DNA of 64,000 nt from Akkermansiaceae bacterium. GTDB taxonomy: Bacteria; Verrucomicrobiota; Verrucomicrobiia; Verrucomicrobiales; Akkermansiaceae. The position numbers and the translations under genes are program-made. How positions within the stretch are numbered: position 1 is the stretch's first letter; each line of letters opens with the position of its first letter. The stretch covers positions 1 through 64,000 of the forward strand of contig JANYEC010000062.1 in NCBI GenBank assembly GCA_025363295.1, given 5' to 3'. The notes under the pieces are model-generated. The model searched no databases and was not told the DNA's origin. It worked only from the letters and a program-made list of their open reading frames with translations. Below, one piece after another: positions 45,721 to 57,287 of the stretch.

Positions 45721-45761
45721 CCAGTGCGACTTCTACGCACCAAAGGTGCAGTCTATCGTAG

Positions 45762-45816
45762 CCCAGGGCGTCGCCCTGGGAATCATCCAACATCCAATCC
45801 AAAGCCCTGAAAGGGC
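45762..45816 (+). repeat. Paired palindrome unit A-B, left of the transposase
   Basis: A: CCCAGGGCGTCGCCCTGGG (45762-45780, a 9+1+9 palindrome). B: GCCCTGAAAGGGC (45804-45816). They are 23 bases apart. The sequence CTATCGTAG before A is also conserved in the other copies. Confidence 0.85.
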
Positions 45817-45827
45817 GGCCTAAATCC

Positions 45828-46280
45828 ATGCCGCAATCCCTCGCTAACATCTATATCCATCTGATTTTCAGCACGAAGGAACGTTTCCCATTTCTGGTAA
45901 AAGAGGTCCGCCCTGACCTCCACGCCTATATGGCTACGGTGCTGGCAAATTTGAACTCCCCAGCAGTTCTCATCAACTCGGTGGAAGACCATGTGCATAT
46001 CCTGTTCAACATGGGCCGCACCGTGACGCTGGCACAGGTGGTGGAGGACGTGAAAAAATCGTCCTCCAAGTGGATCAAAACACAGGGCGCATCATTTTCA
46101 AAATTCTCCTGGCAGGCGGGATACGGCGGGTTTTCCGTGAGCGAATCCAACGTGCCCAAGGTGGCGAATTATATCCAAAACCAGGAGGAGCATCACCGCG
46201 TGAAGACCTTCCAGGAGGAATACCGGGGATTTTTGGAGAAACACAAAATTCAATATGATGAACGTTATGTGTGGGATTGA
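45828..46280 (+). mobile_element. IS200-like Y1 transposase gene, RAYT type
   Basis: A 150-residue HUH single-strand transposase. It has the HUH motif H55-V-H57 in EDHVHILF and the candidate nucleophile Tyr115 in NYIQNQEEHH, in the normal order for the family. The start SLANIYIHLIFSTKERFPFL is typical of REP-associated tyrosine transposases. Paired palindromes flank it on both sides in inverted orientation, which fits a RAYT and its REP-like partners. It sits inside the hsd cluster between hsdM and hsdS. The active-site residues are intact, so it may still work. Confidence 0.85.
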
Positions 46281-46312
46281 ATTCGGGGCGTTGCTCATCG
46301 CTACAATAGGTC

Positions 46313-46367
46313 GCCCTTTCAGGGCTTTGGCATCGGGGGCGGAGCAAACCCAGGGCGATGCCCTGGG
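46313..46367 (-). repeat. Paired palindrome unit B-A, right of the transposase, inverted
   Basis: B at 46313-46325 (GCCCTTTCAGGGC) and A at 46349-46367 (CCCAGGGCGATGCCCTGGG), again 23 bases apart. It is the inverted copy of the left unit, including the CTACCGTAG-like flank. Confidence 0.85.
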
Positions 46368-46409
46368 CTACGGTAGTTTGCCCCCATGGGGCGGAAGAGT
46401 CACGGCCAC

Positions 46410-46471
46410 AAACGTCAACGGCATCTTGGTTTTTAGCGCCAACGGCGAGACGGCTCTTAGCGCCAACGGCG
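46410..46471 (+). repeat. Degenerate 24-bp tandem repeat, about 2.5 copies
   Basis: CAACGG recurs at 46416, 46440 and 46464, exactly 24 bases apart. The last two copies share TTAGCGCCAACGGCG (46433-46447 and 46457-46471). In one frame this gives eight-residue repeats ending in ANG. Confidence 0.6.
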
Positions 46472-46484
46472 CGCCCTATCGCAG

Positions 46485-46540
46485 CCCAGGGCAACGCCCT
46501 GGGATCAACACCCACCCGAAACCCCAAGCCCTGAAAGGGC
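46485..46540 (+). repeat. Paired palindrome unit A-B, just before hsdS
   Basis: A at 46485-46503 (CCCAGGGCAACGCCCTGGG) and B at 46528-46540 (GCCCTGAAAGGGC), 24 bases apart, in the same orientation as the left unit. It is the third copy in 800 bp, ending 31 bases before the hsdS start. Confidence 0.85.
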
Positions 46541-53586: not shown

Positions 53587-53690
53587 CCTCGCATGGTGCG
53601 CCAATGCTAAAATGGCAGGGGAGGGGGCGTAAAGCTGTGGCAATAGAACCTTGAAATGCTGGGAACGGCGTGCATTCTCGCCGCCCGCCC

Positions 53691-54986
53691 ATGGCAGGAC
53701 CTACTTTCCAAGCACTCCCAGGTTTCCGCGACTTCACTCCCCGTGAATGTGCGGTTCGCAATTATTTGTTCGATACTTGGCGCGGCGTCGCCCGGCGCTG
53801 CGGCTATGTGGAATATGAAACGCCCATTTTAGAGGACACGGGTCTGTATTTGAAAAAATCGGGTGGCGAGCTCTCCGCGCAGCTTTTCCGCTTCGAGGAT
53901 CAGGGCGGGCGCGATGTAACCCTACGGCCGGAAGTCACCGCATCGCTGGCGCGGATCGTGGCGCAGCATCAGCGGGATTTCCCGAAGCCGCTGAAATGGT
54001 TCGAAATCGGCCAATGTTTTCGCTACGAAAAGCCTCAAAAGGGCAGAGGACGGGAGTTCCATCAGTTCAACGTGGATATTCTCGGCGAGGGCGGACCGGC
54101 AGCGGACGCGGAGCTGATCGCTCTGGCGATCGAGACGATGTTAGCCTTCGGTTTTGTTGCGGGGGATTTTGTGGTGCGCGTGTCGGACCGCAAGGCGTGG
54201 ATTGATTTTGCGGAGGCGAACAAAATTTCCGAAGATCGCATCCCTGATTTTCTCAGCATCATTGATAAGATTGAGCGCGAGAAACCCGACGTGTTAGAGC
54301 AAAAACTCGCTGCGTTTTCACTCACCCCCGACGGCGTCCGAGCATTCATCGCCGATCCCGCGAACGCTTCCGCCGCCTATCTTGCGATTCGCGAAGATCT
54401 CACCGCCCGTGGCTTTGCGGAATTTGTCGAGCTGGATCTCTCTATTGTGCGTGGATTGGCTTATTACACCGGCGTGGTTTTCGAAGTGTTTGATGCGAAA
54501 AAATCCATGCGTGCCGTCGCTGGTGGTGGTCGCTATGATACTCTTATTTCCACCATTTCTGATGGAGCGGTAGATATGCCCGCCACGGGATTTGCGATGG
54601 GCGATTATGTGATTCGCAACCTGATCGAGGAAACGACGCACACGGCGATGCAATTGGAAGTTTGGCTTCAACGCAACGCTGCTGCCTGCGATATTTATGT
54701 GGTCATTGCGGATGAAACGAAACGCGCGGAATCACTTCGGCTCGTCACGAACCTTCGCCGCGCCGGCATCTCCGCTGACCTTCCGTTAGGTTTGTCTAAA
54801 GTCGCGAAGCAATTCCAAAGCGCCGAGAAATGTGGTGCCCGCTTCGCCCTCGTCGTCGGTCCGGAGTATCCCGAGCTCAAGCTCAAAGTCCTCTCCAGCC
54901 GCACCGAAGAGTCTTGCAACGCCGCCACCGCCATCGCCTGGCTAACCGATCGCCTGCTCCAGCCGGATGGGCCGCTGCTTGCCTGA
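53691..54986 (+). CDS. hisS: Histidyl-tRNA synthetase
   Basis: Class II aminoacyl-tRNA synthetase. It has 431 residues from the ATG at 53691; a GTG at 53670 would add seven residues. The start PGFRDFTPREC and motif 2 (WFEIGQCFRYEKPQKGRGREF) are clear, as are the histidine-specific RGLAYYTGVVFEVF and the C-terminal anticodon-binding domain (VVIADETKRAESLRLVTNLR). It is followed immediately by the left arm of the GxxExxY repeat. Confidence 0.96.
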   Translation: MAGPTFQALPGFRDFTPRECAVRNYLFDTWRGVARRCGYVEYETPILEDTGLYLKKSGGELSAQLFRFEDQGGRDVTLRPEVTASLARIVAQHQRDFPKPLKWFEIGQCFRYEKPQKGRGREFHQFNVDILGEGGPAADAELIALAIETMLAFGFVAGDFVVRVSDRKAWIDFAEANKISEDRIPDFLSIIDKIEREKPDVLEQKLAAFSLTPDGVRAFIADPANASAAYLAIREDLTARGFAEFVELDLSIVRGLAYYTGVVFEVFDAKKSMRAVAGGGRYDTLISTISDGAVDMPATGFAMGDYVIRNLIEETTHTAMQLEVWLQRNAAACDIYVVIADETKRAESLRLVTNLRRAGISADLPLGLSKVAKQFQSAEKCGARFALVVGPEYPELKLKVLSSRTEESCNAATAIAWLTDRLLQPDGPLLA

Positions 54987-54991
54987 AGAAA

Positions 54992-55040
54992 TTCAACCAC
55001 AGATTAACAGGATGGACGCAGATGGAAGAGATGGGATTCA
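54992..55040. repeat. Left arm of a 49-bp inverted repeat
   Basis: Begins TTCAACCACAGAT and ends GATGGAAGAGATGGGATTCA. Compared with the reverse complement of the right arm it has only about four mismatches. It contains the start codon of the GxxExxY gene. Confidence 0.92.
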
Positions 55041-55425
55041 TGTGGTGGAGACCGAGCGAATCATCGGCTGTGCGTTTGCCATTCTAAATACTCTGGGGCA
55101 TGGATACCATGAAAAGCCCTATGAGGAGGCTCTGGTCGTCGATTTCAGGTATCATGATATTCCTTTCACTCAGCAAGCCCGCTACCCAATCGTTTATCGA
55201 GATGCCAAAGTCGGAGAATACATTCCTGATCTTATTGTTTTCGGAAAGGTTGTGGTTGATACGAAAACCATTGACCGTATCACGGATCACGAAGTCGGAC
55301 GCATGTTGAACTACCTTCGTGCCTCGGGTCTTCAGGTTGGGTTGATCCTTAATTTCAAATACGCCAAATTGCAGTTTCGCCGGGTCACACTGACCCCTCG
55401 ATCAGCTCCTCCTCTCAATTCTTAA
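55012..55425 (+). CDS. GxxExxY-family protein
   Basis: A 137-residue protein from the ATG at 55012. The family motif reads GYHEKPYEEAL near residue 35, after ERIIGCAFAILNTLGHG, and is followed by the conserved PIVYRDAKVGEYIPDLIV and LNYLRASGLQVGLILNF. The fold is of the PD-(D/E)xK nuclease type and the family's role is unknown. Both its start and its stop lie within the 49-bp repeat arms, so it forms a self-contained unit between hisS and aspS. The first residues (MDADGRDGIH) are encoded by the repeat. Confidence 0.88.
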   Translation: MDADGRDGIHVVETERIIGCAFAILNTLGHGYHEKPYEEALVVDFRYHDIPFTQQARYPIVYRDAKVGEYIPDLIVFGKVVVDTKTIDRITDHEVGRMLNYLRASGLQVGLILNFKYAKLQFRRVTLTPRSAPPLNS

Positions 55426-55470
55426 TCCCATCTCTTCCATCTGCGTTCATCCTGTCCATCTGTGGTTGAA
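55422..55470. repeat. Right arm of the 49-bp inverted repeat
   Basis: Reverse complement of the left arm with about four mismatches, beginning TTAATCCCATCTCTTCCATC and ending GGTTGAA. It contains the stop codon of the GxxExxY gene and ends 20 bases before aspS. Confidence 0.92.
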
Positions 55471-55490
55471 ACTCTTAAAATCTTTCCAAC

Positions 55491-57287
55491 ATGCGCACTC
55501 ATCATTGCAACGAACTCCGCGAATCCCACATCGACCAAACCGTTACGCTCATCGGCTGGGTCAATTCCGCCCGTGACCACGGCGGTGTCATTTTCATCGA
55601 CCTCCGCGATCGCGAGGGGCTGACCCAATGCGTGTTCCATCCGGAGGAAAATCCTGAGGTTTCGGCCTTGTCTCACACGCTGCGCGAAGAAGATGTGGTG
55701 CAAGTGATGGGGCGCGTTTCCAAGCGTCTTGAAGGATCGGAGAATGCAAAAATCGATACCGGCGCGATCGAAATTGTCGCGACAAAACTGACGATCGTGA
55801 ACAAGGCGGACGTGCTGCCGTTCCAGTTAGATAAAGAACTTTCTAACGAAGATATGCGGATGAAATACCGCTACCTCGATCTGCGCCGGGCACGCATGAG
55901 CAAGAATATCCGCCAACGCAGCGTGATCACATCTGCCGCCCGCCGGTATTTGGATGACTCCGGTTTTTTTGAAATCGAAACACCGATTCTGTCGAACCCG
56001 ACTCCCGAAGGCGCGCGCGATTTCCTCGTGCCATCCCGTCTCAACCCAGGCCGTTTCTACGCGCTGCCGCAAGCGCCGCAGCAATACAAGCAATTGCTGA
56101 TGGTGGCTGGGATGGAGAAGTATTTCCAAATCGCCCGCTGCTTTCGCGACGAGGACCTGCGCGCGGACCGCCAGCCAGAGTTCACCCAGATCGATATCGA
56201 AGCCAGCTTCGTGGATCAGGACGATATCATCAAACTCGTCGAGGGGTTGTTAGCTAACATGTTCAAGGCAGGCCTCGGCGTGGATGTGCCCCAGACATTC
56301 CCCCGGATGACTTATGCGGATGCGATGGACATCTACGGCTCTGACAAACCGGACACCCGTTTCGAGATGAAAATCACCGACCTCGCAGACGTGTTCGCGG
56401 CGACGGAATTTAAGATCTTCCGCAGCATCCTCGATGGCGGCGGTGTCGTGCGTGCGATCAATGCGAAGGGCTTCGCCACCATCACGACCGGTCAAATGAA
56501 TCGACTCAATGAGATCGCTGTGCAGGCCGGACTGCCGGTGAAAAACCTCGCATTCATCAAACTCGAAAACGGCGAATATAAGAGCCCGCTTTGGAAAATT
56601 TTCACCGATGCGGAAAAAGTAAACGTGGCGTCTAAACTCGACCTCGCAGAAGGCGACATTGTCTTCTTCGCGGCAGGATCGCGTGAAAGTGTTAGCACCA
56701 TCCTTGGCCGGGTCCGCTCCGAATGCGCCGTGATGATGGAGCTGAACAAGGATTCCACGAAATTCAATTTCCTCTGGGTGGTGGATTTCCCACTGCTCGC
56801 GCATGACGAGGAAACTGGCCACTGGGCTGCCGTCCATCATCCATTCACCCGTCCCCATCCCGATGATATCGCAAAGCTGGATGCCGGTGATTATGCTAAT
56901 GTTAGAGCAGTTGCCTATGACGTCGTGCTCAACGGCTACGAACTCGGTGGTGGCTCGATCCGGATTCACGAAAAGGATCTTCAATCGAAAATGTTCAGCG
57001 TGTTAGGCGTCGGCCCAGAAGAACAGCAGATCAAATTTGGTCACCTTCTTGATGCTTTTCGCTTCGGTGCTCCGCCGCATGGTGGTCTTGCTCTCGGCCT
57101 TGATCGCATCGCAATGTTAGTCGCGGGTGAAGACAGCATTCGGGAAGTCATCGCTTTCCCGAAAAACAACAAGGGTGCCGATCTTATGGCTCAAAGCCCC
57201 TGCCAGATCGAACACAAGTTGTTGCGTGAAGTTTACATCCAGTCCACCTACAAGGACCCGAAGCTCTCCGCAGAGGCTAAGGTGTGA
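55491..57287 (+). CDS. aspS: Aspartyl-tRNA synthetase
   Basis: Class II synthetase of 598 residues, the bacterial long form. An OB-fold anticodon domain starts MRTHHCNELRESHIDQTVTL. Motif 1 and the catalytic domain follow (LDLRRARMSKNIRQRS, FRDEDLRADRQPEFTQID), then the GAD insertion domain, and the C-terminal motif 3 (GLALGLDRIAMLVAG). It may charge tRNA-Asn too in organisms lacking AsnRS; this cannot be judged here. Confidence 0.96.
   Translation: MRTHHCNELRESHIDQTVTLIGWVNSARDHGGVIFIDLRDREGLTQCVFHPEENPEVSALSHTLREEDVVQVMGRVSKRLEGSENAKIDTGAIEIVATKLTIVNKADVLPFQLDKELSNEDMRMKYRYLDLRRARMSKNIRQRSVITSAARRYLDDSGFFEIETPILSNPTPEGARDFLVPSRLNPGRFYALPQAPQQYKQLLMVAGMEKYFQIARCFRDEDLRADRQPEFTQIDIEASFVDQDDIIKLVEGLLANMFKAGLGVDVPQTFPRMTYADAMDIYGSDKPDTRFEMKITDLADVFAATEFKIFRSILDGGGVVRAINAKGFATITTGQMNRLNEIAVQAGLPVKNLAFIKLENGEYKSPLWKIFTDAEKVNVASKLDLAEGDIVFFAAGSRESVSTILGRVRSECAVMMELNKDSTKFNFLWVVDFPLLAHDEETGHWAAVHHPFTRPHPDDIAKLDAGDYANVRAVAYDVVLNGYELGGGSIRIHEKDLQSKMFSVLGVGPEEQQIKFGHLLDAFRFGAPPHGGLALGLDRIAMLVAGEDSIREVIAFPKNNKGADLMAQSPCQIEHKLLREVYIQSTYKDPKLSAEAKV

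Follow-up and report, generated by a model that had tools for sequence, protein, structure and literature searches.

A GxxExxY gene lies between hisS and aspS in the genome of an Akkermansiaceae bacterium, bounded at both ends by a long inverted repeat. We consider it, with a probability of roughly 60%, to have long been resident at this site as one copy of a miniature mobile element with a single gene. In this family of elements, a nuclease and its cognate hairpin repeats would work in a manner resembling the RAYT-REPIN system. Elements of this kind are about 0.45–0.55 kb long, with the GxxExxY gene between two inverted arms that each consist of approximately three tandem 7-mer words.

Structure of the unit between hisS and aspS

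The window, namely the whole 64,000 nt stretch of DNA that was analysed, contains the following features in this region:

53670–54986, + strand, hisS, upstream of the GxxExxY gene and in the same direction
54986–55038, + strand, left inverted-repeat arm, made up of TTCAACC and then tandem degenerate words (CACAGAT-TAA-CAGGAT-GGA-CGCAGAT-GGA), with the start codon inside
55012–55425, + strand, GxxExxY gene, 137 aa, predicted PD-(D/E)XK nuclease (E34, D73, D83, K85)
55424–55476, − strand, right arm of the inverted repeat, non-coding
55491–57287, + strand, aspS, downstream of the GxxExxY gene and in the same direction

The repeat search returned arms of 53 nt each, paired at 48 of the 53 positions (91% complementary) and separated by 385 nt, and the 49 bp repeat with about four mismatches described in the earlier note is a trimmed version of this. 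The left arm adjoins the stop codon of hisS. The start and stop codons had been placed in the left and right arms, respectively, and the ATG at 55012 is within the left arm while the TAA (55423–55425) is at the right arm's inner edge. A second possible in-frame start, at 54967, is inside hisS. The local alignment score for the two flanks was 81, which is higher than that of any cross-locus pairing, and none of 200 shuffles scored above 27. When the unit was folded as RNA (z = −11), a stem of approximately 50 bp was formed around the open reading frame (ORF), with the start codon in the stem. The hairpin in mRNA suggested in the earlier note is plausible in view of this fold. A sigma-70 and terminator scan found no promoter-like sites or terminators in the hisS–aspS spacer, and no Rfam family corresponded to the unit. 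It has the terminal inverted repeats of a DDE insertion sequence or MITE and no DDE transposase, the GxxExxY gene being the sole ORF. It also has terminal repeats that form a stem around one ORF, as found in the intervening sequences (IVS) of 23S rRNA.

Most of the genomes used are draft assemblies, which might favour an assembly artefact. However, the repeat is kept in five species at the hisS–aspS position and also occurs in cultured isolates of several phyla, including a perfect 52 nt repeat in Hymenobacter daecheongensis. A chance palindrome or an assembly artefact has a negligible probability and is already refuted.

The GxxExxY protein is a predicted nuclease

The identification of the gene as GxxExxY was confirmed, as the 137 aa protein matched both TIGR04256 (118 bits, cut-off 35) and PF13366, PDDEXK_3 (109 bits, cut-off 22). 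An AlphaFold2 model with a pLDDT of 90.7 was used for structure comparisons (Foldseek and VIA-align), which retrieved PD-(D/E)XK nucleases. The best match was Cas4 SSO0001 (Z 9.4 over 98 residues). Nucleases of the Hjc and lambda-exonuclease types ranked below it, and LHK-Exo, MGME1 and Hjc were among the matches. The catalytic D...(D/E)xK residues and the helical E are all present (D73, D83-T-K85 and E34, the last being the E of the GxxExxY motif), and no variation at E34, D73 or K85 was seen across 78 sequences. The protein can therefore be confidently predicted to be a PD-(D/E)XK nuclease whose catalytic residues are intact. The stretch coded by the left arm has low model confidence and is probably disordered.

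The fold and catalytic residues are common to the Cas4/lambda-exonuclease/Hjc branch. In contrast to Cas4, the GxxExxY protein does not have the four iron-sulphur cysteines, as it includes only one cysteine (C20); no CRISPR context was seen, and the gene has its own arms. A search of PDB sequences found no relative of the protein, and the copy in the window had no match in the defence library. The Q of the QxxxY motif (residue 97) is conserved in the family, and is R or K in the orthologues found between hisS and aspS. This is perhaps a change in the handling of DNA ends.

Rpn (YhgA-like, recombination-promoting) nucleases are also PD-(D/E)XK proteins tied to DNA mobility, as is proposed here for GxxExxY. 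They belong to a different family, and we know of no bracketing repeats associated with them.

Inverted repeats bracket GxxExxY genes in many phyla

The unit had been expected to recur elsewhere, and the same architecture was found around further GxxExxY genes in the source genome, the order and many phyla. In the source genome, each of the six GxxExxY genes is bounded on both sides by inverted repeats, which are strong for three genes and marginal for three relative to the shuffle maximum. Most of 80 loci examined across the order were bracketed by inverted repeats (median flank score 47), and the same was true of most of 80 loci from many phyla, cultured isolates included (Bacteroidota, Cyanobacteria, Proteobacteria, Acidobacteria, Chloroflexota, Planctomycetota and others). 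The median flank score in the cross-phylum set was 36, and was 19 for other ORFs of the same contigs (p = 4e-14), a control set that is itself contaminated, as several of its high scores belong to GxxExxY cassettes nearby, to a gene for a four-helix bundle or to the window's Y1 transposase gene.

The arms follow a simple grammar of approximately three tandem 7-mer words of the form CRCNRAK, spaced by 2–4 nt and often starting with AACC. Each element repeats its own word in both arms (CGCCAAG, CGCAGAG, CGCGAAT, CACAGAT, CACTGA and CACGGAT, amongst others), and the two arms of one element resemble each other more closely than the arms of orthologues do. Hairpin-templated copying would produce such homogeneity, and so would joint selection of the two arms as binding sites. 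Among non-syntenic loci, arm similarity tracked protein similarity to a modest extent (p = 0.01), and the arms of two elements from the same genome were no more alike than background. At the level of sequence, the type of arm therefore follows the GxxExxY protein and not the genome, with an exception among gene-less arms (G026, described below).

The same inverted layout was found around intergenic TIGR02436 genes (L159–L184 in relatives, and L141:236–607), which encode four-helix-bundle proteins of the 23S-IVS type that are not nucleases. In this case the arms are built from other words (TTTTCAG, AAAGTCT, GATTTTG, AGTGAGA), and 23 of 26 loci were above the 95% cross-locus level. In one further instance (L129:321–1511), an ORF like a restriction specificity subunit is found between perfect 32 nt arms with the word CGCGGAG and adjoins a GxxExxY gene.

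Gene-less arm pairs

The earlier note had left it to be seen whether the arms occur elsewhere, and both gene-less arms and the arms of other GxxExxY genes proved to be abundant. A search with the motif AACCRCNRAK-N0-4-CRCNRAK-N0-4-CRCNRAK found eight matches in the source genome and up to 190 in others. Across 145 genomes of the phylum there were 1642 matches, compared to four for the reversed motif. Gene-less inverted pairs of 80–165 bp are common among the matches, and several are found directly after stop codons.

When the arms were scored as present in any genome with at least three motif matches, 49 of the 145 genomes had both arms and gene, three had arms only, 20 had the gene only and 73 had neither (odds ratio 60, p = 1.6e-18, uncorrected for kinship). 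The Spearman coefficient for motif and gene over the same genomes was 0.66, likewise uncorrected for kinship. In 15 of the 20 genomes with the gene and fewer than three matches there were no matches at all, though the count of 20 is an upper bound because the strict motif misses arms that start with TCAC or are without AACC. The three genomes where arms were found and the GxxExxY gene was not (G143, G170 and G099) contain 18, 14 and 4 motifs, respectively. The gene-less arms resemble those of the GxxExxY genes resident in the same genome, the true assignment being the best of 5040 label permutations. An exception was G026, in which the gene-less arms are unlike those of its resident genes.

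In the source genome, a gene-less pair with CGCAGAT arms is located between pheS and pheT (L251/L015, around position 12,650 of contig C25). This pair encloses the remnant of another repeat, and a nested pair was also seen at L250. In G018, a gene-less repeat of approximately 165 bp with CGCGAAT arms and CCTRGA ends is present in at least 12 copies (L229–L247). A convincing duplication of 5–6 bp (CTGAC, TTCAGC) was found at only two of its four complete copies, too small a number to establish a target duplication.

The earlier note reasoned that a unit with no transposase must borrow its machinery. The arms would then resemble the ends of a MITE and be mobilised by an unlinked transposase, with the nuclease gene a passenger or a selfish helper. 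The number of gene-less arm pairs, which exceeds that of the genes, and the hint of 5–6 bp duplications in G018 are consistent with this, as are the presence of a Y1 transposase in the window and the four-helix-bundle genes bracketed by other tandem words, which make a common outside machine possible. However, motif and gene co-occur strongly, the arm type tracks the GxxExxY protein and not the genome, and the REP-like repeats of the Y1 gene in the window are unlike the arms, so that we regard movement by borrowed machinery as unlikely. Nor is borrowing required, as the gene itself encodes a predicted nuclease with an intact active site and arms of matching type. By analogy with RAYT-REPIN, where the same pairing is seen, the GxxExxY nuclease may be its own mobility factor.

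Gene and arms move as a unit

The mobility proposed in the earlier note was borne out by a related unit found at two sites in another genus of the phylum. Loci L269 and L283 have 500 nt in common at 88% identity. The common stretch runs from AACCACCC to GGGTGGT, and the sequences on either side are unrelated. At L269, the unit is between rsxA and rsxB, and this spacer is short and without the unit in four other genomes (G058, G158, G109 and G032). At L283, it is in the spacer between the genes for ferredoxin-NADP reductase and the glutamate synthase small subunit (before a glutamate-synthase-like gene), and this spacer is without the unit in G032, G158, G061 and G109. The two sites are thus reciprocally empty, each being unoccupied in the genome that carries the other copy as well as in three further genomes. 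The element proteins are 92% alike and the rsxB proteins of the two hosts 77%. As the flanks are unrelated and the sites reciprocally empty, these sequence comparisons show that the GxxExxY gene and its arms move as one unit that ends at the arms, either by transposition or by transfer. No target duplication was visible at L269 or L283.

Within the genus of the source genome, most GxxExxY copies are orthologous and old, and movement therefore appears to be slow and rare. Carriage by phages was considered and rejected, as GxxExxY units were found in none of the phage records, one viral contig and five plasmids (distant).

Among the 141 loci with readable neighbours, 95 were in the sense orientation between two co-directional genes and 10 were antisense in such a position, and the upstream gene was co-directional in 119. 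Together with the lack of any promoter-like site in the hisS–aspS spacer, this bias suggests that the host operon drives expression of the gene.

A sense bias of 95 to 10 in operon spacers would also suit an element that acts at the RNA level like the 23S rRNA IVS, where cleavage of the mRNA stem by RNase III makes insertion into an operon harmless and copies arise via RNA or a transcription-coupled route. The approximately 50 bp stem enclosing the ORF (z −11), the likeness to the IVS of Coxiella (PMC4990558) and the four-helix-bundle genes with the same layout all point in this direction. However, selection for expression explains the sense bias equally well, the hisS–aspS group has kept its words without strict left-right pairing, and the protein fold is that of a DNA nuclease. 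We therefore consider an RNA-level element to be improbable.

An old insertion in the hisS–aspS spacer

The hisS–aspS spacer was compared in 15 genomes of the genus, including the source genome, and relatives with and without the cassette were both found. It is present in the same orientation in five (the source genome, G003, G014, G005 and G010), and G006 retains the right arm in what is left of a decayed cassette. Seven genomes (G001, G007, G009, G013, G015, G016 and G017) have a short, empty spacer. In the remaining two (G004 and G018; loci L026 and L030), the spacer contains different, unrelated gene-less repeats, and the same spacers have therefore been struck repeatedly. Wherever a relative has kept the gene at this position, the repeat accompanies it. 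Neither of the two outcomes that would have spoken against the earlier note, a gene without the repeat in all relatives or arms that occur nowhere else, was observed.

The five cassettes group in a single clade (92/96) whose branching is star-like, and the aspS tree places their hosts in scattered positions. This phylogeny is explained by one old insertion near the base of the genus, retained in some lineages and lost in several, which we favour over recurrent insertion of the cassette at this position. Between the five, dN is 0.11–0.16, synonymous sites are at or near saturation and pN/pS is 0.12–0.22, values that place the gene under purifying selection. The cassette is thus not a recent arrival. 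The flanks of the hisS–aspS cassettes are too diverged to place a junction, and no exact junction or target duplication was resolved at any gene-bearing unit.

Over all pairs of the five species, the right arm is 87% identical (335/384), and identity falls to 60% in the coding tail before the stop codon and to 54% just outside the arm. The right arm is therefore a part of the unit that is selected or homogenised, and its edge is sharp. In this group the words of the arms are kept and the pairing of left with right is not strictly kept.

Long purifying selection at one site, the conserved arms and the start codon within the stem could also indicate a domesticated gene, namely a nuclease with a host function in repair or defence whose arms are regulatory hairpins or autoregulatory binding sites, and whose movement is incidental. 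This sits poorly with the loss of the gene from many congeners with no visible replacement, with gene-less arm pairs far from the gene and with reciprocal filled and empty sites, and the protein in the window is without a match in the defence library. We give domestication marginally less credence even than an RNA-level element.

Proposed mechanism and relationship to known systems

The GxxExxY gene seems to belong to a kind of miniature mobile element that had not been recognised before, and we infer that the nuclease is the agent that moves the unit. The arms, as a cruciform or as single-stranded hairpin DNA, would be the cognate substrate of the nuclease, which would recognise its own word-built arms and cut or process them, releasing or copying the unit. 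Replication or repair would then insert this product, or a gene-less arm pair, into the spacer of another operon, where the gene would come to be expressed from the host operon. At hisS–aspS, this would have occurred once near the base of the genus, followed by retention in some lineages and loss in several. A broader proposal, that GxxExxY proteins in general are the mobility enzymes of unrecognised minimal elements found across phyla, is more tentative, and we place it a little short of even odds. In each such element, one PD-(D/E)XK nuclease of approximately 120 aa would act on hairpin ends built from tandem words of its own. A large population of gene-less hairpins would depend on these enzymes, and the elements encoding four-helix-bundle (S23-like) proteins would be a sister class.

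In open-access full text, GxxExxY was nowhere described together with repeats of this kind, and the arm words appeared in no bacterial paper. No function for GxxExxY was described in the open-access literature searched, and the annotation refers only to a sequence motif. With its own terminal repeats and a unit that moves, GxxExxY goes from a family without an assigned function to a mobile-element system that can be tested. This accounts for a large class of hairpins found between genes in Verrucomicrobiota, and probably also for those of other phyla. Should the nuclease be what drives mobility, the GxxExxY units would rank with the smallest known elements that move themselves.

As in insertion sequences and MITEs, there are terminal inverted repeats and gene-less, non-autonomous derivatives, but the GxxExxY unit has neither a DDE nor a HUH transposase and no established target duplication. 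The IVS of 23S rRNA with an S23 four-helix-bundle protein resemble it in size (0.4–0.5 kb), in having one ORF of approximately 120 aa and in the long stem formed by the terminal inverted repeat (PMC4990558). That of Coxiella, a 428 nt element with terminal repeats and one ORF, is excised by RNase III, and these IVS are considered selfish (PMC4990558). In contrast, the GxxExxY unit is found in the spacer of an mRNA operon (hisS–aspS) and not in a 23S rRNA helix, and it encodes a predicted nuclease and not a four-helix bundle.

There is also a close likeness to RAYT-REPIN (PMC3116915, PMC8266576). In both, inverted hairpin repeats flank a short gene, the genome also contains inverted pairs of that type without a gene, inheritance is mostly vertical and the gene copy number is low. 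Each type of gene also has its own type of repeat, a correspondence that is modest for GxxExxY (p = 0.01) and has G026 as an exception. The RAYT enzyme is a Y1 HUH transposase, whereas GxxExxY is a predicted PD-(D/E)XK nuclease, and it is because the enzyme is not a Y1 transposase that the unit works like RAYT-REPIN without being a member. The repeats also differ, being short palindromes with a GTAG tag in RAYT-REPIN and tandem 7-mer words beginning with AACC in the GxxExxY arms. In addition, it is the gene-bearing unit itself that moved in the GxxExxY case. GxxExxY would represent a second, enzymatically independent case of this organisation.

A unit of the RAYT-REP type is also present in the window and serves here as a comparator outside the finding:

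45758–46371, + strand, IS200-like Y1 unit, with the Y1 gene (PF01797) at 45828–46280

The Y1 gene is bracketed by inverted GTAGCCCAGGGC and GCCCTGGG repeats, and a third copy of the repeat is found at 46481 (region 45758–46503).
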